Assembly: GCA_013824755.1 (NCBI GenBank)
Contig: PNOJ01000004.1
Span: 1 to 56,946, forward strand
Direction of reading: 5' to 3'
DNA: 56,946 bases
Origin: Gemmatimonas sp.
Lineage (GTDB): Bacteria > Krumholzibacteriota > Krumholzibacteriia > LZORAL124-64-63
Numbering within the stretch: position 1 is the stretch's first letter; each line of letters opens with the position of its first letter. Made by a program: the position numbers and the translations under genes. Of this stretch, positions 1 to 25,499 are shown piece after piece. The notes under the pieces were generated by a model, which was not told the origin of the DNA, did no database searches, and was given only the letters and a program-made list of their open reading frames with translations.

Positions 1-2681
<2,681 letters not shown>

Positions 2682-2733
2682 AAAGGCAAGAACGCATCCT
2701 CAGATGCACCTTCATTTGCTACCCTCTATATTC

Positions 2734-2747
2734 GGTTATCAAGGAAC
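2734..2747 (-). promoter_or_regulatory. boxA-like antitermination element before 23S
   Basis: The minus strand reads GTTCCTTGATAACC, close to the boxA consensus (TGCTCTTTAACA or GTTCTTTGAAAAC), 52 nt before the 23S 5' end and just after tRNA-Ala. Bacterial rRNA operons commonly have a second boxA in this spacer for the NusB/S10 antitermination complex. The match is partial, so this is a tentative call. Confidence 0.4.
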
Positions 2748-2766
2748 GTACCGTCGTGGACGGTGC

Positions 2767-2842
2767 TGGTGGAGATAGACGGGATCGAACCGTCGACCTC
2801 CGGCTTGCAAAGCCGGCGCTCTCCCAACTGAGCTATATCCCC
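2767..2842 (-). tRNA. tRNA-Ala (TGC)
   Basis: A 76-nt cloverleaf on the minus strand: acceptor GGGGATA, the D-arm motif TAGCTCAGTTGGGAGAGC, anticodon stem CCGGC/GCCGG around TTTGCAA (anticodon TGC), and T-arm GGTTCGATCC. The 3' CCA is encoded (TGG at 2767-2769 on the plus strand). It sits between tRNA-Ile and 23S, as in most Ile-Ala spacer operons. Confidence 0.97.
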
Positions 2843-2854
2843 GAAAGACAAGCG

Positions 2855-2931
<77 letters not shown>

Positions 2932-2966
2932 CCAGTCAACCACACGCCAAAAGGGGAAATCCCGGC

Positions 2967-3000
2967 TTTTGACAAGAGAATAGCGTACGAGACGGACGAT
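2967..3000 (-). repeat. 3' arm of the pre-16S processing stem
   Basis: AATAGCGTACGAGAC at 2979-2993 is the exact reverse complement of GTCTCGTACGCTATT at 4705-4719, in the 16S leader. The flanks TTTGACAA and ACGATT also find partners there. In the precursor RNA the arms would loop out the whole 16S, forming the double-stranded stem usually cut by RNase III. Confidence 0.85.
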
Positions 3001-3043
3001 TCCAAGCTTCACCATAAGACTTCCGGCACAGGGCCGGAGGCCT

Positions 3044-4608
<1,565 letters not shown>

Positions 4609-4691
4609 GTAAAAATATACAACAGGAATCGTTTCCTGTTTTTCGCAAGACAAGACGTGATGGATCCGAGGATCCGACACGTCCGACTCGG

Positions 4692-12747: not shown

Positions 12748-13638
12748 TCAGCTGCCGCGGATCGCCGTGTTGGCGACCTTGAACCAGTTGATGCGGATCG
12801 TGCCGCAGACGTTGCGCAGCGTGCCGTAGGACTTGGTGCGCTCGATGATCGAGTCGGACACGCTGATCAGCGAGAACGAACCGACCAGGGGCAGGTTCTT
12901 CTCCTTCAGCAGCTGCAGCATGAAGCCCGCGCCGGCGTCGAGGTCGACCACCTTCAGCGTCGCGTTGTCCAGCACGATGTACCAGCCGTAGTCGTTGGGG
13001 CCGGGGTTCGCGCGCTGCGACTCGCTCAGGTCGTGGCGGGGCACGTAGACGAAGTTGTCCACCATCGACTGCACCTCGGGCGCGCGGTCGCCGGCGTTCG
13101 CCGGCAGCAGGGGCTGGAAGGTGCTGAACAGGCGGGCGTTCATCTCGTTGAGGTTCGTGCCCGGGGTCTCGATCTGCTGCTTGGTCAGCTTGACGATCGA
13201 CGGCAGCGTGTAGTTCGCCACCGAGTCGACGCGCGCGATCGCGCCGCCCTGACGCACGCCCATCAGGAACAGGTGCGTGGTCGTGTTGCCGGTGGCGCGG
13301 TCGGTGAACCGCTTCTGCACGCCCAGGCGCTGGCCCTGGTACTTGCCGGCGTACTCGGTCTGGAGGGCGGGACCGACCAGGAAATGCATCTGGTTGCCCT
13401 GCTTGACGATCGCCACGTCGCCGCGCGCGAAGTAGAGCGGGGGGCCGTCGACCTCGAACAGGAAGTCCGCGCTGCGGACCGTGTCGGCGCCCGCCATCAC
13501 GGCGCCCAGGGAGGCGGACAGGTAGGGATCGACCACCTTCTCCTTGCTGCAGCCGGCGAGCCCGGCCAGGATCGCGATGAGGACCATCGCCGCGAGGAGA
13601 AGCGGAGCCCGTCGCAGCACGGACGTGGCAGCAAACAT
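12748..13638 (-). CDS. Predicted lipoprotein of unknown function
   Basis: A 296-residue protein I do not recognise. The N-terminus is a lipoprotein signal: two Arg, a hydrophobic stretch, and the lipobox LAGC with the lipidated Cys at residue 30, followed by Ser-Lys, which is compatible with outer-membrane sorting. The mature part is soluble-looking, with an HLFLMGV stretch and a C-terminal FKVANTAIRGS. A later region (ISVSDSIIERTKSYGTLRNV) hints at a helix, but no family motif is visible. Start ATG 13638 is preferred over an upstream codon because GGGAGG sits six bases before it. It is monocistronic and faces pfkA across a shared terminator. Confidence 0.8.
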   Translation of the reverse strand: MFAATSVLRRAPLLLAAMVLIAILAGLAGCSKEKVVDPYLSASLGAVMAGADTVRSADFLFEVDGPPLYFARGDVAIVKQGNQMHFLVGPALQTEYAGKYQGQRLGVQKRFTDRATGNTTTHLFLMGVRQGGAIARVDSVANYTLPSIVKLTKQQIETPGTNLNEMNARLFSTFQPLLPANAGDRAPEVQSMVDNFVYVPRHDLSESQRANPGPNDYGWYIVLDNATLKVVDLDAGAGFMLQLLKEKNLPLVGSFSLISVSDSIIERTKSYGTLRNVCGTIRINWFKVANTAIRGS

Positions 13639-13731
13639 GGACAACCTCCCTTGGGGGTATCGGATCGTGCCGGTCGTCGACGGCCGGCGTATCAACCTGG
13701 ACTGGCGCTCCCGCCGCAGGACCGCGGCAGC

Positions 13732-14513: not shown

Positions 14514-15908
14514 CTAGTCGGCGATCAGGGACCCGCCGCCGAGCGGGCGCAGGCGGGCGGTGAAATGGCGCAGCACCGGCGCCTCCTCGACGATCTCCAG
14601 GCCGCGCAGCCGCTCGCCGCACTCGCGCAACCTCCCGCAGACCTCCGCCACGTAGGCCAGGTGCGTCTCGGTGTACACGCGCCGCGGCACGGCCAGCCGC
14701 ACCAGCTCCATCGCCGGGTGCACGGTCCGGCCCGTCTCGGGGTCGGCGTGGGCGAACATCAGGCTGCCGATCTCCACGCCGCGCACACCGCCCTCGAGGT
14801 AGAGGGCGCAGGTGAACGCCTGAGCCGGGAAGGCGCTCTGCGGCAGGTGCGGCAGCAGGCGCCGCGCGTCGACATAGACGGCGTGGCCGCCGACGGGCGT
14901 CAGGATCGGCACCCCGCGCGCCTGCATCTGCTCGCCCATCCGCCGGACCTGGCCGATGCGGTAGGTCAGGTAGTCGTCGTCGAGCACCTCGCGCAGGCCC
15001 TGGGCGACCGCGGCCAGGTCGCGGCCGGCCAGGCCGCCGTAGGTGCGGAAGCCCTCGATGAGGATCAGCAGGTTGGTGATGTCGCGGGCCCAGTCGTCGT
15101 CGTTCAGGCAGAGGAAGCCGCCCATGTTCACCAGGGCGTCCTTCTTGGCGCTCATCGTGCAGCCGTCGCCGAGGGCGAAGATCTCCCGCGCGATCTCCTT
15201 GATGCTGCGGTCGCCGTAGCCGGGCTCGCGCCGCTTGATGAACCAGGCATTCTCGGCGAAGCGGCAGGCGTCGAAGATCAGGGGCACGCCCCGGCCGTGG
15301 CAGAAGGCGGAGACCTCGCGGATGTTCGCCAGCGACACGGGCTGCCCGCCGCCGCTGTTGTTGGTGATGGTGATCATGACGAAGGGGATGCGGTCGCCGT
15401 AGCGGTCGAAGGCCTCGGCGAGCTTGGCCAGCGACATGTCGCCCTTGAAGGGGTGCTCGCCCGTCGGGTCGAGCCCCTCGTCGATGACGCAGTCGAGCGC
15501 CAGCGCGCCCTGGTGTTCGACGTTGGCGCGCGTGGTGTCGAAGTGGATGTTGTTGGGCACCACCGAGCGCTTGTCCAGGCGCGTGGTGAACAGCAGGTTC
15601 TCCGCCACGCGTCCCTGGTGCGTGGGGATGACGTGGCGGTAGCCGAAGATGTCGCGGATGGTCTCCTCGAAGTCGTAGTAGTTGCGGCTGCCCGCGTAGG
15701 CCTCGTCCCCCTGCACCAGCGCGCCCCACTGGGCGTCGCTCATCGCCGAGGTGCCGCTGTCGGTCAGCAGGTCGACGTAGATCGACGAGCTCGGCAGGCC
15801 GAAGACGTTGTAGCCGGCCTTGGCCAGCGCCGCGGCGCGTTCCTCGCGGCTCACGCGGCGGACCGGCTCGACGACCTTGATGCGGTAGGGGACGAACGGC
15901 AATTCCAT
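14514..15908 (-). CDS. tnaA: Tryptophanase / tyrosine phenol-lyase family enzyme, tryptophanase-type active site
   Basis: A 464-residue PLP-dependent beta-eliminating lyase. Family hallmarks: DLLTDSGTSAMS (48-57), GDEAYAGS, PTHQGR (95-100), NNSGGGQPVS, FDACRFAENA, and SAKKDA with the PLP lysine at 256. Much of the scaffold resembles tyrosine phenol-lyase (AGYNVF, DGCTM, NMGGFLCLNDD). However, the position of the TPL phenol-binding Arg (ME-R-G) is Ile380 (VEIGS), and the TPL FFTARF is HFTARL (His448), both as in tryptophanase. I therefore favour cleavage of tryptophan to indole, pyruvate and ammonia. Start ATG 15908 follows GAGGAGG by four to five bases. A hypothetical gene follows in the same operon. 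No TnaC-like leader is visible in the 131-bp upstream gap. Confidence 0.85.
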   Translation of the reverse strand: MELPFVPYRIKVVEPVRRVSREERAAALAKAGYNVFGLPSSSIYVDLLTDSGTSAMSDAQWGALVQGDEAYAGSRNYYDFEETIRDIFGYRHVIPTHQGRVAENLLFTTRLDKRSVVPNNIHFDTTRANVEHQGALALDCVIDEGLDPTGEHPFKGDMSLAKLAEAFDRYGDRIPFVMITITNNSGGGQPVSLANIREVSAFCHGRGVPLIFDACRFAENAWFIKRREPGYGDRSIKEIAREIFALGDGCTMSAKKDALVNMGGFLCLNDDDWARDITNLLILIEGFRTYGGLAGRDLAAVAQGLREVLDDDYLTYRIGQVRRMGEQMQARGVPILTPVGGHAVYVDARRLLPHLPQSAFPAQAFTCALYLEGGVRGVEIGSLMFAHADPETGRTVHPAMELVRLAVPRRVYTETHLAYVAEVCGRLRECGERLRGLEIVEEAPVLRHFTARLRPLGGGSLIAD

Positions 15909-16039
15909 GGGTCCTCCTCGACCAGGGAGACGGCGGCGGGAGACGGCGGAAGGCCTTGCCACGCGCGGCGCGGCGGGGCATCCTGCGGGGTCGAAGGTAG
16001 CAGCCGCCGTTACGGCGAACAAGGAAAGAGGGGGCGACG

Positions 16040-16525
16040 ATGGTCCTGCCGGACCGCTGGCGACAACGCCTGCGCGAAGCGTGGCGGGCGGCGGTGGGGC
16101 CGACGCGGGATCCGCGGGCCATCGCGCGCGGCGTCGCGGCGGGCCTGCTGGTGGCGCCGACGCCGGTGCTCGGGCTGCACACCTGGATGGCCCTGGGACT
16201 CGCGACGGCGCTGCGCGCGAACCGGGCGGCGGCGCTGCTCGCCTCGAACCTCTCGAACCCGGTGACCTTCCTGCCCCTGGCGCTGCTCGACGTGCGGCTG
16301 GGCACGTGGCTGCTCGGGCGCCCGCTGCCGGAGCTGGCCGTCGACGAGATCTCGCGGGCCAGGCTGGGCGAGGCGCTGCTGGCGGCCTGGCTCGGCGCGG
16401 CCGCGCTGGGTGTCGCGCTGGCCGCGGCAGGCTACCCGGCGGCGCTGGCGGCGGCCCGACGCCGGCTCGCCGACGACGACGCGGTTCAGCCCCCGTCCTC
16501 CCCCAGCGGCGAGCGGTCCTTGTAG
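16040..16525 (+). CDS. DUF2062 family membrane protein
   Basis: A 161-residue protein. The core (residues about 27-125) matches the DUF2062 pattern: a GVAAGLLVAPTPVLGLHTWMALGLA hydrophobic hairpin, NLSNPVTFLPL, then a second pair of hydrophobic helices. The family consists of small inner-membrane proteins without an agreed function, often near sugar transferases. ATG 16040 follows AAAGAGGGGG. Its last 40 bp overlap, tail to tail, the 3' end of the giant gene on the other strand. The C-terminus is a short hydrophilic tail. Confidence 0.8.
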   Translation: MVLPDRWRQRLREAWRAAVGPTRDPRAIARGVAAGLLVAPTPVLGLHTWMALGLATALRANRAAALLASNLSNPVTFLPLALLDVRLGTWLLGRPLPELAVDEISRARLGEALLAAWLGAAALGVALAAAGYPAALAAARRRLADDDAVQPPSSPSGERSL

Positions 16526-19500
16526 CACACCAGCAGCCGATCGCCCGCCGGCGCGATCGCCCGGTAGAGGTGGCGCGGCATCTCGTTGCCGAAGAAGAGA
16601 CAGGCCAGGTCGTGCGGCCGCCCCCCGACGCCGTCGTCCGGTGTCGTGAGCGCCAGCACCGGCGGCCCGTCCGTCGGCGCCCGCAGTCCCCCGATCCCGT
16701 CGGCCTCGATGCGCCAGGCGAGCAGGAGCGGCTCGCGGACCAGGTCCGCCAGCGTGGCGCCCCCGTGGATCGCGACGAGCTCCTTCAGTCGGCGCCGCGC
16801 CACCGGCCAGGCCAGCAGCGATTCCGACCAGCCGGTCCGGGCCGCCAGGGCGATCAGCTCCGAGAGCGTCGCGGTCGGCGGCGGGGCCGCCTCCCCCAGC
16901 CAGCGCCGGTACTCGCGGGCAGCCGCCGACGGCATCAGCCCGGCGGCGGCCGGCGCGGACGGCGACGACGGCGCGGCGACGCGACGCGGGGGCGCGACCG
17001 CACCGGCGGCGGCCACGTCCAGGGCCAGGGTCAGGATCTCGAACGGACCCGGCAGCAGCAGCGGGTCGAGGCGGTGGCGCTCCACCGGCAGCCAGCCCGC
17101 CAGCGAGGCGGTCTGCGCGAGCGTGACGAAGTCGCCGCGCACCGGCGCCACCAGGTTCCAGAGACGCCCGGCGCCGCCGCGCTGCAGATCGACGATGAGG
17201 TTGACGGCCTCCGGACCGTTGGTGGTGTAGGAGGACACGACCTCGCCGCGTTCGCGCCGCCGGGCGCGGACACGGGGGCGCTCGCCGGCGAAGCGCGCGA
17301 CCAGATCCAGGATCTCCTCGCACACCTGGCGCGACTGGTCGCGCTGGTCCCGCAGGGCGATCACCTGCTGCCGGGGCGGCACCACCAGGTAGAGGTGCTC
17401 GCGCGTCTCCTGGCAGAGCATCGGGTCCACCGTCCACAGCTGCCGGCCGGCCTGGAAGCGCTGGGCGGCGCGGAAGCGCAGCGTCGTGGAGAGGTCCTGG
17501 GCCTCGAGCAGCACCAGCACCTCCTCGGCGGGCTCGCCGCGGAGGATCCCGTCGCCGGGCGGGTCGCCCAGTTCCAGGTTGTCCTGCTCCAGGATCACGT
17601 TCAGCGGCGGCAGGCCGGACCGGACGCGACGCCAGGCCAGATGGAACCTGGCCGCGGCGGCCGTGCCGGGCGCGATCACCACGATCTGCCGGTGGTCGGT
17701 CCCCGCGTCCAGCAACGACACGAGCAGGCGGGCGGCCGCTTCGGGCGCGCCGGTGCCCGTCATGCCCTCCAGGACCAGGGGCGGCGCACCGGGCGACGGC
17801 CAGTCGGCGACCGGTTCCGCATCGTCGTCGCGCCCGGCCCGTCGCGCGGCGACGGGCTTCACGTCGGGCAGGCAGCCGTCGCGCCAGGCTTCGAGCAGTT
17901 GCTCCCGCCACGCGTCGTCCTCGCGGGCCAGGGCGGCCAACAGCTCGGCCGCGGGCGTCGGGTCGGTCCCGGCGGCGAGCACGGCGGCGAACTCGTCCAG
18001 CGCGATCTCACCGTGCGACGCCGCGCCGTCGACGCACCACAGGCCGAGCATGACGCCCGCGGCGTGCACGTCGTCGTCCGACGCCGGGAACGGGACCTCC
18101 CCCGCCTCGTGACCGGACAGCTGGCGCGCCCGCTCGCGCACGGCCGCCAGGCGTCCGGAAACGAGCGAGGCCAGCGTCGCGGCGTCCCCGCGCACGCCGC
18201 AGCGGCGTCGCGGCGCGTGGAGCGCCCCGCCCGCCGCGGCGTAGACCAGCAGGGTCCGGCCGGCCGGCGCGCGCAGCGGCGAGATGGCCAGCAGCAGACG
18301 GTCCCACCAGCCGCGTTCGGTCGGGTCGAGCCACGGCCAGAGACGGAGCGGATCGGTCAGCAGGGGCGAACCCTCCAGCGCGGTCGCGGCGCCCAGCGAC
18401 GCGACGACGCGCGGCAGCAGCGCCTGGAGCCGTTCGAGCCGGTATTCGGCCTCCACCAGGGCCACCGCGGGCCGCACGCGGCGCGGCCGCGGCGTCGGTT
18501 CCCGCGCGACGCTGCGGCCGCCGACCGCCGCCGTCCAGGCGGCGACACCCAGGGCCCGGCGCACGTCCGCGGCGGGCAGGCCGCAGAGCGCTTCCACGCA
18601 GCGGGGCGGCAACGCGCCGTCCCCGCCGGGGCCGACCTCGGCGCCGGGCGGCGCCGACGCCACGCTGAACAGTCGCCGGAAGTCCCCGCCGGTCGCGCGG
18701 CGTTCGTCGCCGGCCAGCGCGCCGCACGCGGGATCCAGTTCGAGCGCGTGGTACCAGAGGCTCGTTTCGCCGCGGGCGCGCAGACGGAACCGCCGCAGCT
18801 CCTGCTCGCCGGGAGGCGGGTCCAGCAGGGCGTGGCGGCATTCGGCCGGCGGCTCCTCGGCGCGGCCCAGGCAGCAGACGAGCCATTCGTCCGGGGCGGG
18901 CGAAGCCGTCAGTTGTCGGGTGGGCTGCAGGCGCCAGCGACGACCCGCCTCGTCCAGCAGGGACGTCAGCAGTTCCTGGTGCTCGGGCGCCGTCCACACG
19001 CAAAGCGGTTCGGGTCGTGGCGCCGCCGTGCGCTCGGCCAGGGCCCGGAGCTTCTCGCGCCACAGGTGCCGCAGCAGGGCGGTGCGGTCCGCGGGCGAAG
19101 CCCAACGCTCCAGCGCCGAACCGCAGGCGGGGCAGCCCTGTGACCAGCGGAGCCAGGCCGACACCGTGGCGCAGCTCGGGCACGGCCATTGCGGGTCCGG
19201 GATGCGGCCGATCACGACCGCGGGCAGGTCCGCCAGGTCCGACATCGTCGCCTCGTCCAGGGTGTCGAGGACCAGGCCACCGGCATGTTCGAACAGACCG
19301 GACAGGTATCGGCGCCAGGAACCCGGCAGGTCCGTCGCCTGCAGGGTCATCGGCGCCTCGACCAGGTGCAGCAACGCGTGCAGGCAGGGCGCGCAGCGAC
19401 CGCCGTCGGTCGCGCCCGACGGCAGCCAGCCACCCAGATCCCCGGCCCAGATCTCCGTCGGCGGGTCCAGGGCGAGTCGCCGGACCAGCTCGGGGTCGGC

Positions 19501-22500
19501 GAGGTCGGACGGCCGGGCCCAGGTGACGGCATGCCAGCCGCCGCCAGGCGGCGAGCCGTCTGCGGCGAGCAGCGAGGGTCGTGGCGACAGCACGGCGTCG
19601 CGCAGGACCACCGCTTCGGCCGGCGGCGAATCGCTCACCACCAGCAGCCAGGCGCCGTGGTCGCCGTCTTCGCGGGCCGCGGTCACCGCGTCCGCGCAGT
19701 GGAGCCAGGCGGCCGCCGGATCGCCCAGCACGAGGCGGCGCCGGGCCGTCGGCCAGGCTTCCGGCAGACCGGTGCGTTCGCGGTCCAGGAATCCCGGCGG
19801 CAGGCCCCGCCCTTCGGCGTCGGTCCAACCCTGGATCTGCAGCCAGCCCACGACCGACTTGCGCAACGGGTCGGCGGCGCGACCGCGTCGCACCGGCGGC
19901 CGCACCGGTTCACCGTCCAGGTCGAAGACGCCGGCGCCCCACGCGCCCGCCAGGGCGGCAGCGCCGGCGGCGTCCAGCGACGAGCTGCCGTCCGCACCGA
20001 GCGGGAACGTGCGCCACCAGCGCGTGTCCCCGACCATGACGGCGCCCGCGCCCCTACCCCGCAGCGCGTGCAGTTCCAGCGCCAGCAGGGCGCGACGCTG
20101 CGCGGCGACCGCGGCGGCCTCGACGTCGCGGCGCCGCCAGGAACCGTCATCCGCGGCGTCGGCGGCGCCGTCGCCGGCGGCGGGGTCCAGGCTCGCCAAC
20201 TGGGGAACGTAGACGACGCCCCCCGCGCACCGCCTCGCGGTGTCCGCGTCGTCCCAGAAACCGTCCTGCGTCTCGACGCCGAGATCCGTGACGGGCAGGG
20301 CGGCGATCCCGCCGCGCGCCAGGGCGTGGAGGCAGGCGCCCAGCGGACCCGTCGTCGGCAGCAGCAGCCGCGCGCCGGCCGTCCCGGACAGCTGCGCGAG
20401 GCGGCGGGCGTGGGCCGCCGCGGCGGCGCCCAGGCGCACCCGCGCGTCCGGAGGCGGGCCGCCGACGGCCAGCGACAGCGGCGTCGCCGCGTCCCCGCCG
20501 CGCACGAAGACCCGGCAGGCGCCGTGGAGCGAGAGCCAGCCCCCGAGGATGGCGGCGAGGTCGCCGTCGAGGATCGGGGCGGGCGAGAGCAGCGACAGCT
20601 GGCCGGCGCCCTCGCCGGCCAGGGCGCGATGACGGGCGGCGGGTTCGTCGGCGCCGCGGCGGCGCCAGCTCCAGTTGATCACGGCGGCGTCGGCGAAGAC
20701 CCAGGCGACGGCCCGCCCGCCCAGCCCCCAGAGCCGGGCACGCGCCGCGCCGTCGCTCGGCAGATCGCCGGCCAGCCCCACGACCGCGGCGTCGCCGGCC
20801 ACGCGCTGGGCCAGTTCTGCGGCCCAACCGGACGGCCCCGTCGCCGCTTCACGGCGCGTCTGCAGGTCCAGCCAAGCGTCGTAGCGGTCGATCCAGGGAC
20901 AGGCGCCGCGCTCGCGCGGGCGCAACCGGCGGTGGTCGGCCAGGTCGCCGTTGTGGGTCGCGGCGAGTCGGCAGGCGTGGATCAGCGGCAGCAGGCCCAG
21001 GTTCGGCGTCGAGGCCATCTCCGACAGCTGGGACAGGGCCGCCTCGCGGTCGTGGAACTCGCCGCCCGCCGGCACGAGGGTCCAGGCGCCCGGTTGCCGC
21101 GACAGCGGGCCGGCGAATTCCGCCAAGCGATCGGCGCCGTCCAGGACGACGCGCCAGGCGGCGCGACGCTGACCCCAGGCTTCCAGCGCCGACGCCCGGT
21201 CGGCGGCGTGCACCAGCGCCGAGGCCGCCGCGGCCAGTTCAGGGTCGCGCGGCTCGACATGGCGGCGACCGCCCTCCGTCGTCGCGGCGGCGAAGACGCG
21301 CGGCGACGGCCGGTCCTGCAGCGGGGTCAGGGGCCAACCCTGGGGCCGCACGAGATCCGGTGGCAGGAACGACGCCACCAGCCGTGCCGCGGCGTCCCCG
21401 CGGCGGGCCAGTTCGCGGATCATGCCGCGCTGCCCGGGCTCCGCGGCCGACAGGCGCGACGAGACGCCCAGCCAGACCCGTCCCGCGCGCAGAGCGCCCG
21501 CGATCGCGACGGAAAGAGGCTCCCCGGACTCCATGGCGAAGAGCGGGTGCGGCGCCGGCGCTTCGCAGCGCTGTGCGGACAGGGAGTCCAGCACGCCGTC
21601 GTCCACGCCTCGTGACGGCAGTTCCGGCTCCAGCAGCGCTTCCACCAAACCCCGCAACTCCCAGCCGGAAAGATCGTTGCCGATGTCACCGAGCACCAGC
21701 ACACGATCGCGCGCCTCGCCCAGGTACGCGGCCACCGCCGCGGCGGATGGCCCGTCGTGCCAGCACAGCACGTCGAGAGGGCGGCTCCGGCGCCACACCA
21801 CCAGGTGACCGACGCCGCGGGCGTCGAGGGCCGCCGTGGCCCAGACCCCGTCTCGGGTCCCGATCCTTCGCTCCTGCAGCACGACCAGGGCCGCGCGACG
21901 GCGACGCTCGACCGCCGCGTCGGCGGCGACGGCTTCGAGCAGGACCAGGGCCTCGTCGTAGCGCGGGACCGGCAACGCGAAGCGGTCCAGGTTGGCGAGC
22001 AGGGAGGCGGCGGCGAGACGGGCGAGGTCGCGGCGTTCGGCGGGCGTGCCCTCCTCCCGCGCGCAGGCGGCGTAGAGGGCGGCGGCCCGCGGCGCGTCGT
22101 CCAGCGGTCCTTCGGCCAGCTGGGCGGCGAGCCAGAGCCGCTCGGCCTCCTGGACGGGACCGACCATGTGTTCGGGAGCGAGCAGGGCGTCGGCGTCGCG
22201 GGCGAGAGCGCGAACGGCGGCGTCCGCCTGCCCCCGGCGCGCGAATTCCAGGACGCGCGCGGCCAGCCGCAGGCGGACGTCGGCGGCCAGGGGCAGCGAC
22301 ACGGCCAGCAGGCCTTCCGGCGGCGGGCAGCCCGCATCGCAGGCGGCGACCAGCGCGGCCTCGAGGAAGGGCGAGGGATCGATCCGGCGCAGGTCGGCCA
22401 GTTCGCTGACGGCGGTGAGGTAGGCGGCACCGGCCGCCAGGCCCAGACGTTCGCGGGGCGGGAAGGTGCCGGGCGCCGCGACCGAGGCGCGCGCCCGGTC

Positions 22501-22770
22501 CAACAGGCCGCGCGCCTGGTCACGGAAATCCGCCGTGAATCCGGCCCGTTCCCGCTCCCAGCGGCCGGCCTCGCCCCCCTCGGCGGCGCCGGCGCCGCGC
22601 AGGCGGGTCAGGGCGCGCTTGGCCGCGCCGCCCATCTTCTCGCTCAGGAACACGCGCACGGGCGATCGTTCGCGGCTGTACCCCGCTTCGGCGAAGCGGG
22701 ATTCCGCCCCGCGCAGGTCGCCTGCTTCGAGCCGGGTGCGGGCCTCGGCCAGCAGATCCCAGTAATTCAT
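16486..22770 (-). CDS. Giant protein (2,094 aa) with zinc ribbon and degenerate UvrD-like SF1 helicase domain
   Basis: A 2,094-residue protein of no family I recognise. Residues 1-60 hold a TPR-like helix pair (RLEAGDLRGAESRFAEAG). A four-cysteine zinc ribbon, CPSC-X12-CPAC, lies at 1197-1216. From about 1660 to the end the order of SF1A helicase motifs can be traced but with catalytic residues missing: GMTGTGAP (1669-1676) where Walker A GxxGxGKT belongs, LEAQDLS (1755-1761) for DEAQDLS, VDPMLCQ (1781-1787) for GDxxQ, GGRPHDLACLFFG for the AKGLEFD motif, and LYRAIAPAGDRLLV (2068-2081) for YVAxTRAxxxL. Between these parts there are long Ala/Arg-rich regions with no visible motif and no membrane segment. 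It starts 23 nt after leuS, so the two are likely cotranscribed. I infer a scaffold or pseudo-ATPase; the true role is unknown. Confidence 0.8.
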   Translation of the reverse strand: MNYWDLLAEARTRLEAGDLRGAESRFAEAGYSRERSPVRVFLSEKMGGAAKRALTRLRGAGAAEGGEAGRWERERAGFTADFRDQARGLLDRARASVAAPGTFPPRERLGLAAGAAYLTAVSELADLRRIDPSPFLEAALVAACDAGCPPPEGLLAVSLPLAADVRLRLAARVLEFARRGQADAAVRALARDADALLAPEHMVGPVQEAERLWLAAQLAEGPLDDAPRAAALYAACAREEGTPAERRDLARLAAASLLANLDRFALPVPRYDEALVLLEAVAADAAVERRRRAALVVLQERRIGTRDGVWATAALDARGVGHLVVWRRSRPLDVLCWHDGPSAAAVAAYLGEARDRVLVLGDIGNDLSGWELRGLVEALLEPELPSRGVDDGVLDSLSAQRCEAPAPHPLFAMESGEPLSVAIAGALRAGRVWLGVSSRLSAAEPGQRGMIRELARRGDAAARLVASFLPPDLVRPQGWPLTPLQDRPSPRVFAAATTEGGRRHVEPRDPELAAAASALVHAADRASALEAWGQRRAAWRVVLDGADRLAEFAGPLSRQPGAWTLVPAGGEFHDREAALSQLSEMASTPNLGLLPLIHACRLAATHNGDLADHRRLRPRERGACPWIDRYDAWLDLQTRREAATGPSGWAAELAQRVAGDAAVVGLAGDLPSDGAARARLWGLGGRAVAWVFADAAVINWSWRRRGADEPAARHRALAGEGAGQLSLLSPAPILDGDLAAILGGWLSLHGACRVFVRGGDAATPLSLAVGGPPPDARVRLGAAAAAHARRLAQLSGTAGARLLLPTTGPLGACLHALARGGIAALPVTDLGVETQDGFWDDADTARRCAGGVVYVPQLASLDPAAGDGAADAADDGSWRRRDVEAAAVAAQRRALLALELHALRGRGAGAVMVGDTRWWRTFPLGADGSSSLDAAGAAALAGAWGAGVFDLDGEPVRPPVRRGRAADPLRKSVVGWLQIQGWTDAEGRGLPPGFLDRERTGLPEAWPTARRRLVLGDPAAAWLHCADAVTAAREDGDHGAWLLVVSDSPPAEAVVLRDAVLSPRPSLLAADGSPPGGGWHAVTWARPSDLADPELVRRLALDPPTEIWAGDLGGWLPSGATDGGRCAPCLHALLHLVEAPMTLQATDLPGSWRRYLSGLFEHAGGLVLDTLDEATMSDLADLPAVVIGRIPDPQWPCPSCATVSAWLRWSQGCPACGSALERWASPADRTALLRHLWREKLRALAERTAAPRPEPLCVWTAPEHQELLTSLLDEAGRRWRLQPTRQLTASPAPDEWLVCCLGRAEEPPAECRHALLDPPPGEQELRRFRLRARGETSLWYHALELDPACGALAGDERRATGGDFRRLFSVASAPPGAEVGPGGDGALPPRCVEALCGLPAADVRRALGVAAWTAAVGGRSVAREPTPRPRRVRPAVALVEAEYRLERLQALLPRVVASLGAATALEGSPLLTDPLRLWPWLDPTERGWWDRLLLAISPLRAPAGRTLLVYAAAGGALHAPRRRCGVRGDAATLASLVSGRLAAVRERARQLSGHEAGEVPFPASDDDVHAAGVMLGLWCVDGAASHGEIALDEFAAVLAAGTDPTPAAELLAALAREDDAWREQLLEAWRDGCLPDVKPVAARRAGRDDDAEPVADWPSPGAPPLVLEGMTGTGAPEAAARLLVSLLDAGTDHRQIVVIAPGTAAAARFHLAWRRVRSGLPPLNVILEQDNLELGDPPGDGILRGEPAEEVLVLLEAQDLSTTLRFRAAQRFQAGRQLWTVDPMLCQETREHLYLVVPPRQQVIALRDQRDQSRQVCEEILDLVARFAGERPRVRARRRERGEVVSSYTTNGPEAVNLIVDLQRGGAGRLWNLVAPVRGDFVTLAQTASLAGWLPVERHRLDPLLLPGPFEILTLALDVAAAGAVAPPRRVAAPSSPSAPAAAGLMPSAAAREYRRWLGEAAPPPTATLSELIALAARTGWSESLLAWPVARRRLKELVAIHGGATLADLVREPLLLAWRIEADGIGGLRAPTDGPPVLALTTPDDGVGGRPHDLACLFFGNEMPRHLYRAIAPAGDRLLVCYKDRSPLGEDGG

Positions 22771-22793: not shown

Positions 22794-25325
<2,532 letters not shown>

Positions 25326-25499
25326 GATCCGTCGATCCTCCGGCCGGCGACGCGGCGTCGCCGGGGATGGCTGGGCTGTGGGCGTTGGGACGGCGCGGAT
25401 CCGCGCGCCTCGGTCGCGCAACTCTAACCGCACGGCTCCCGCCGCGCCACCCCCAATCGGCGGCGCCCGGCGTGTCGCCGTGCGTCGACGCGCGCGGGA

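Follow-up and report, generated by a model that had tools for sequence, protein, structure and literature searches.

What a bacterium does with a protein of more than 2,000 residues that looks like a helicase but lacks the residues of an active one is the question raised by the locus described here. The protein, labelled P0001, is encoded in a stretch of 56,946 nucleotides (contig PNOJ01000004.1, hereafter the window) from a 2.46-Mb draft genome of Candidatus Krumholzibacteriota that is 84% complete. In what follows, ‘own family’ denotes the uncultured family of this source genome and ‘second family’ another family of the same class. Helicase folds that have outlived their enzymatic activity are known: AddB and RecC recognize single-stranded DNA through an inactivated SF1 fold (PMC4824097, PMC1185551), the PriA protein of Deinococcus radiodurans has lost its ATPase while DNA binding and the interaction with DnaB persist (PMC4504706), and Utp25 is a pseudohelicase of the SSU processome that serves ribosome assembly (PMC9539457). 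Whilst pseudohelicases are familiar, the presence of up to three inactivated helicases in a single protein would be new, and no multi-helicase pseudohelicase was found in a full-text literature search for pseudohelicase, which yielded only three papers and the coverage of which was incomplete. P0001 appears to have been built from up to three different helicases whose active sites have been lost and whose folds have been maintained by selection. The reading preferred here, with a probability of about 0.6, is that it is a housekeeping, non-enzymatic pseudohelicase scaffold, for which nucleic-acid binding, scaffolding and the pathway served are all inferred.

Locus, conservation and selection

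The initial annotation had placed the gene at the correct coordinates, and the gene lies on the minus strand: this strand is uninterrupted from 16486 to 22770 and has coding-like GC contents at the three codon positions (0.82/0.58/0.91), and a plus-strand reading of the same interval was rejected because of internal stops. The features of the gene and its product are collected in Table 1.

Table 1. Coordinates in the window of the P0001 gene, the adjoining leuS gene and the segments and motifs assigned to the protein
Feature	Position	Strand	Basis or remark
P0001, whole gene, 2,094 aa	16486..22770	-	Single open frame; complete homologues 1,972-2,096 aa; family search
leuS	22794..25433	-	23 bp upstream of P0001 gene; Pfam, synteny
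All-helical TPR-like solenoid, residues 1-301	21868..22770	-	AlphaFold secondary structure; TPR proteins KLC1 and LGN listed by Foldseek
Alpha/beta domain, residues 305-505, identity unsettled	21256..21858	-	AlphaFold secondary structure
DinG/XPD-like (SF2, Fe-S type) pseudohelicase, residues 507-1000	19771..21252	-	Foldseek; hhalign of second family with DinG
Suggested RecQ-like SF2 remnant with inserted zinc ribbon, residues 1005-1480	18331..19758	-	hhalign; SF2 proteins among fold matches
Zinc ribbon CxxC-x12-CxxC (Cys 1197, 1200, 1213, 1216)	19123..19182	-	Sequence
UvrD-type (SF1A) pseudohelicase, residues 1655-2094, two RecA-like lobes, no 1B	16489..17808	-	AlphaFold, Foldseek, hhalign
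Degenerate motif I GMTGTGAP (residue 1669)	17743..17766	-	Own-family form GxxGSGRHEAL, Lys to Arg
Degenerate motif II LEAQDLS (residue 1755)	17488..17508	-	Own-family form CEAQRF, without the Asp but with Glu and Gln
Degenerate motif III VDPMLCQ (residue 1781)	17410..17430	-	Sequence; alignment of relatives
Degenerate motif VI IAPAGD (residue 2072)	16540..16557	-	Arg kept in most relatives, e.g. LGRVTD

The gene belongs to a core translation operon (ffh, trmD, rplS, rnhB, yraN and leuS), and the gene order around it is conserved among relatives, with a tnaA-like gene downstream. leuS lies immediately upstream in the source genome, in some members of the own family and in two of the four genomes of the second family; other own-family members have a different gene in its position, which in the single case checked was a subtilase (1,285 aa with an FlgD-Ig-like end, L070:6055-9912, from another own-family genus). 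Directly downstream in the window is a Beta_elim_lyase gene (tryptophanase/tyrosine phenol-lyase-like; 14514-16022, minus strand), whose position is kept in all own-family relatives for which the data include the contig on that side. A 315-aa ORF without a Pfam match (12748-13695, minus strand) is syntenic across the own family and has a weak counterpart downstream of the P0001 relatives in the second family. At the window edge, positions 1-4610 of the minus strand hold the end of an rRNA operon (16S rRNA, tRNA-Ile, tRNA-Ala and most of the 23S rRNA), which accounts for the low-GC start of the window.

Relatives that match P0001 in length and layout were found by protein search in 34 of the 38 own-family genomes, which are also every genome sampled from that order, and C-terminal fragments were recovered by profile search from two further own-family genomes (36/38). 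The second family has relatives in all four of its genomes, in one of which (G044) the gene is divided between contigs L092 and L163, probably through an assembly break; no match was obtained in the remaining six families of the class. An assembly chimera was rejected, as the identical architecture is present in more than 20 separate genomes. In five close pairs dN/dS was 0.09-0.21, with the N-terminal, middle and C-terminal segments all within this range; the pair that includes P0001 itself gave 0.31 (N-terminal part only), and one distant pair gave 0.58-0.79 and was not relied on owing to its divergence. The gene is real and old and, because it is conserved and under purifying selection, a reading as a pseudogene was rejected.

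Sequence searches did not assign the protein to a family. Comparison of P0001 with Pfam, NCBIfam and PADLOC gave nothing above cut-offs, only noise at the level of the zinc ribbon, and a PDB sequence-profile search with the P0001 families gave no significant match, an AspRS match of the second family being judged due to chance. Matches of 680 aa from a profile search looked like PriA by eye and were discarded, since only a P-loop stretch was held in common. An origin in anti-phage defence or a mobile element was also rejected, there being no PADLOC, phage or plasmid match and the locus being a core one.

The C-terminal module

An AlphaFold model of residues 900-2094 (25 sequences, pLDDT 76, pTM 0.66) contains two RecA-like lobes, with the P-loop between the end of a strand (residue 1669) and the beginning of a helix (residue 1675), and motif II at a strand that begins at residue 1751. 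When this model was compared with the PDB using Foldseek, the top twelve matches were all UvrD/PcrA (E 2.5e-7 to 1.1e-5, probability 1.00), followed by AdnB, with AddB, AddA and RecD2 lower in the list; query-normalised TM-scores are low in the fold comparisons of P0001 (0.19-0.32), since each model comprises several domains and was compared as a unit. The initial annotation had inferred an inactivated UvrD-type helicase in this third of the protein, and the predicted fold bears it out. Profile-profile comparison by hhalign does so too, by way of the second family, whose C-termini bridge to UvrD from 1B through to motif VI (415 columns, score 46.9, E 1.2e-4), against maxima of 27.0 for 61 column-permuted or reversed profiles and 24.2 for eight unrelated decoy families, and which align with the own-family C-termini at E 1.3e-18 over 272 columns. 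Compared directly, the own family matches UvrD only at motif I-Ia in a restricted comparison (E 6.7e-4) and is borderline in an unrestricted one (score 27.9, where two null sets peaked at 27.7 and 22.5). Its PDB profile search returned a single weak match (E 0.95), which lies at motif I and is to HelD, an SF1 helicase, and neither PF00580 nor PF13361 of Pfam matches P0001.

The degenerate motifs GMTGTGAP, LEAQDLS, VDPMLCQ and APA (the last within IAPAGD) are found where the initial annotation had put them, and corresponding substitutions occupy the same columns in the homologues. Both checks proposed in the initial annotation, on the predicted fold and on the homologues, were thus passed. None of the 23 sequences spanning the motifs retains the Walker A Lys, which has been replaced by Arg in 21 and by Ala in two, P0001 being one of the latter; the Asp of motif II is likewise kept in none, Glu and Gln being retained in most; and GDxxQ has become xDPxx at the corresponding column. 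The Arg of motif VI is lost in P0001 and retained in most relatives, and at motifs I and VI P0001 is more eroded than they are. The claim that every catalytic residue had been replaced goes slightly too far, as P0001 still has Glu1756 and Gln1758 of motif II and the motif VI Arg persists in most of its relatives. The motif order is that of UvrD but the spacing is not that of a full UvrD, with 86 residues from motif I to motif II because subdomain 1B, still there in the second family, is missing from the own family. As Arg stands at the Walker Lys position in two of the three second-family sequences covering motif I, the Lys was probably lost before the two families split. The protein ends about 20 residues past motif VI, with no PDDEXK match. 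Both the UvrD fold of this module and its inactivation are well supported; it is not, however, the sole inactivated helicase of the protein, and the DinG-like and RecQ-like modules, as well as the loss of 1B, had been overlooked.

The N-terminal half and the middle of the protein

The TPR-like start that had been proposed from the sequence is also helical and TPR-like in an AlphaFold model of residues 1-1000 (26 sequences, pLDDT 84.8, pTM 0.76), in which the helices run through to about residue 301. The alpha/beta domain that follows is modelled with strands at 309-315, 321-327 and 330-337 and a helix at 343-355; its position suggests, without establishing, a degenerate counterpart of the DEDD-exonuclease-like domain of Firmicute DinG, and full-length S. 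aureus DinG (8zef) is among the top fold matches of the model. A reading of residues 300-500 as a CHAT protease, made by eye, was abandoned when the fold search returned DinG. The ten best Foldseek matches of the model include S. aureus DinG, three CasDinG proteins and XPD (E 2e-3 to 6e-2, probability 0.96-1.00); DinG and CasDinG make up four of the top five PDB matches (probability 0.99-1.00), with senataxin ahead of them (E 9.7e-4), and the comparison of the whole multi-domain model again keeps the TM-scores low. An hhalign comparison of the second family with 29 DinG sequences gave a score of 33.1 (E 0.006) for an alignment of 112 columns that takes in the Fe-S domain and the DEAH box, the maximum of 60 nulls being 24.9. 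All four proteins of the second family have the four Fe-S cysteines without variation, whereas the DEAH box is not retained there. The N-terminal halves of the two families are homologous (E 2.7e-6); residues 507-1000 of the own family have no Walker A motif and have lost the Fe-S cysteines, P0001 included. A DinG/XPD-like module at about 507-1000 is well supported.

The RecQ-like module at about 1005-1480 is the least certain and is suggested rather than established. It is only the second family that aligns with RecQ, weakly and in the stretch from motif Ib to motif III (score 27.5, E 0.014), although none of 60 nulls reached this score (maximum 23.6); the own and second families align with each other in this region at E 8.8e-10 over 151 columns. 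The putative module has no Walker A motif, and no Pfam match to RQC or HRDC domains was obtained in P0001. The central zinc ribbon reported in the initial annotation was confirmed at residues 1197-1216: its four Cys, spaced as in P0001, are invariant in the second family, and it is missing from most other own-family members.

Proposed role and alternative explanations

It is proposed that P0001 originated as a multi-helicase fusion, which was probably inactivated prior to the split of the two families because the Arg in place of the Walker A Lys of the UvrD-like part is common to both. The TPR-like N-terminus would dock partners, an inferred function, and so recruit an active enzyme; behind it would follow in series the DinG/XPD-like module, the RecQ-like module with its zinc ribbon and the UvrD-like module, all predicted to be without the residues for ATP binding and hydrolysis and to have retained their folds. 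The likeliest mechanism is that the former helicase grooves, motors no more, grip RNA or single-stranded DNA or fasten onto partner proteins, in the manner of the pseudohelicase domains of AddB/RecC and of D. radiodurans PriA. Whether the ligand is DNA or RNA is undecided, the ancestry of the modules pointing to DNA and the operon to translation, although the translation-gene partners fit a role with RNA or the ribosome as well as one with DNA.

Intact helicases are encoded elsewhere in the class (of 58 genomes, 45 have DinG, 21 RecQ above the curated cut-off and all 58 UvrD), and AddA and AddB with PDDEXK domains are present separately in the clade genomes examined, so P0001 looks like an addition rather than a replacement. 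No active ancestor was found downstream of leuS in other families of the class, and a search of a viral fold library gave weak matches only; phyla outside the search may contain multi-helicase fusions that are active. A RecQ-scoring core (G043, L229:1885-5988), encoded in a frame of 1,368 aa whose long N-terminus is unassigned, contains DEAD and Helicase_C only and was rejected as a P0001-like fusion because it is without a UvrD domain.

The operon, conserved from ffh to leuS, would also suit a scaffold of ribosome or RNA biogenesis that acts on rRNA or tRNA as a bacterial analogue of Utp25, a pseudohelicase with a precedent in small-subunit assembly in which the fold is kept, the motifs are dispensable and the role is in assembly (PMC9539457). 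Utp25 is, however, eukaryotic, of the DEAD-box type and a single module, the presumed ancestors UvrD, DinG and RecQ are DNA enzymes, and operon membership alone is weak evidence, some members having another gene at the leuS position; this reading is unlikely, if conceivable.

The structural role ‘as in RecC’ that had been suggested for P0001 remains an inference. Taken literally, P0001 would be a RecC/AddB-like subunit whose pseudo-UvrD module scans single-stranded DNA in a resection complex with an AddA/RecB-type motor. AddB and RecC have the same kind of SF1A-type inactivated helicase domain, UvrD-like in fold and with the catalytic motifs lost (PMC4824097, PMC1185551), and AddA and AddB structures are among the Foldseek matches of the C-terminal model. 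Against this, P0001 has no nuclease or nuclease-like domain behind its helicase fold and the clade has its own, separate AddA and AddB, on which two grounds orthology with AddB or RecC was rejected; moreover, the gene lies in the leuS operon with leuS and the tnaA-like gene as conserved neighbours, not beside addA (which addB adjoins elsewhere in a clade genome), and nothing in RecC/AddB corresponds to the DinG- and RecQ-like modules. Such a subunit is improbable.

That P0001 retains ATPase or helicase activity through divergent motifs, with Arg serving for the Walker Lys, might be argued from the retained Glu and Gln of motif II and from the motif VI Arg of most relatives, but as the Walker Lys and the motif II Asp are missing from 23/23 sequences and the DinG- and RecQ-like Walker A motifs are likewise absent, it is very improbable. 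A one-time multi-helicase fusion now decaying would explain the vanished catalytic motifs, the loss of the zinc ribbon in most own-family members and the greater erosion of P0001, but is scarcely credible in view of open frames of about 2,000 aa across the family, near-universal presence at a fixed locus and low dN/dS in all parts of the close pairs.

Relation to known systems

The housekeeping scaffold preferred here is set apart from each of the enzymes that it resembles. With UvrD and PcrA it shares two RecA-like lobes, the motif order and an end at motifs V/VI (and, in second-family relatives, 1B), and it differs in the missing Walker A Lys and motif II Asp, in the absence of 1B from the own family and in its fusion behind other helicase-like modules. 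The predicted fold of about 507-1000 resembles DinG and XPD, as do the four Fe-S cysteines of the second family, but Walker A and DEAH are lost and the own family is without the cysteines. In RecQ the zinc subdomain comes after lobe 2, whereas the zinc ribbon of P0001 precedes the putative lobe 2. The PriA of D. radiodurans is likewise a bacterial DNA helicase retained after loss of its ATPase (PMC4504706), but it is one module from a known ortholog group, whereas P0001 has several modules and no curated family. It is possible, at slightly less than even odds, that P0001 represents an undescribed class of poly-pseudohelicase, a vertically inherited core scaffold combining TPR with inactivated DinG, RecQ and UvrD that would work without ATP, clamping nucleic acids and serving as a hub for assembly, in either genome maintenance or the metabolism of RNA. 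If this is true, helicase folds would be reusable wholesale as passive scaffolds. The two families would form a natural series, in which the second has 1B and the four Fe-S cysteines and the own family has neither, so that the order of loss would be traceable.
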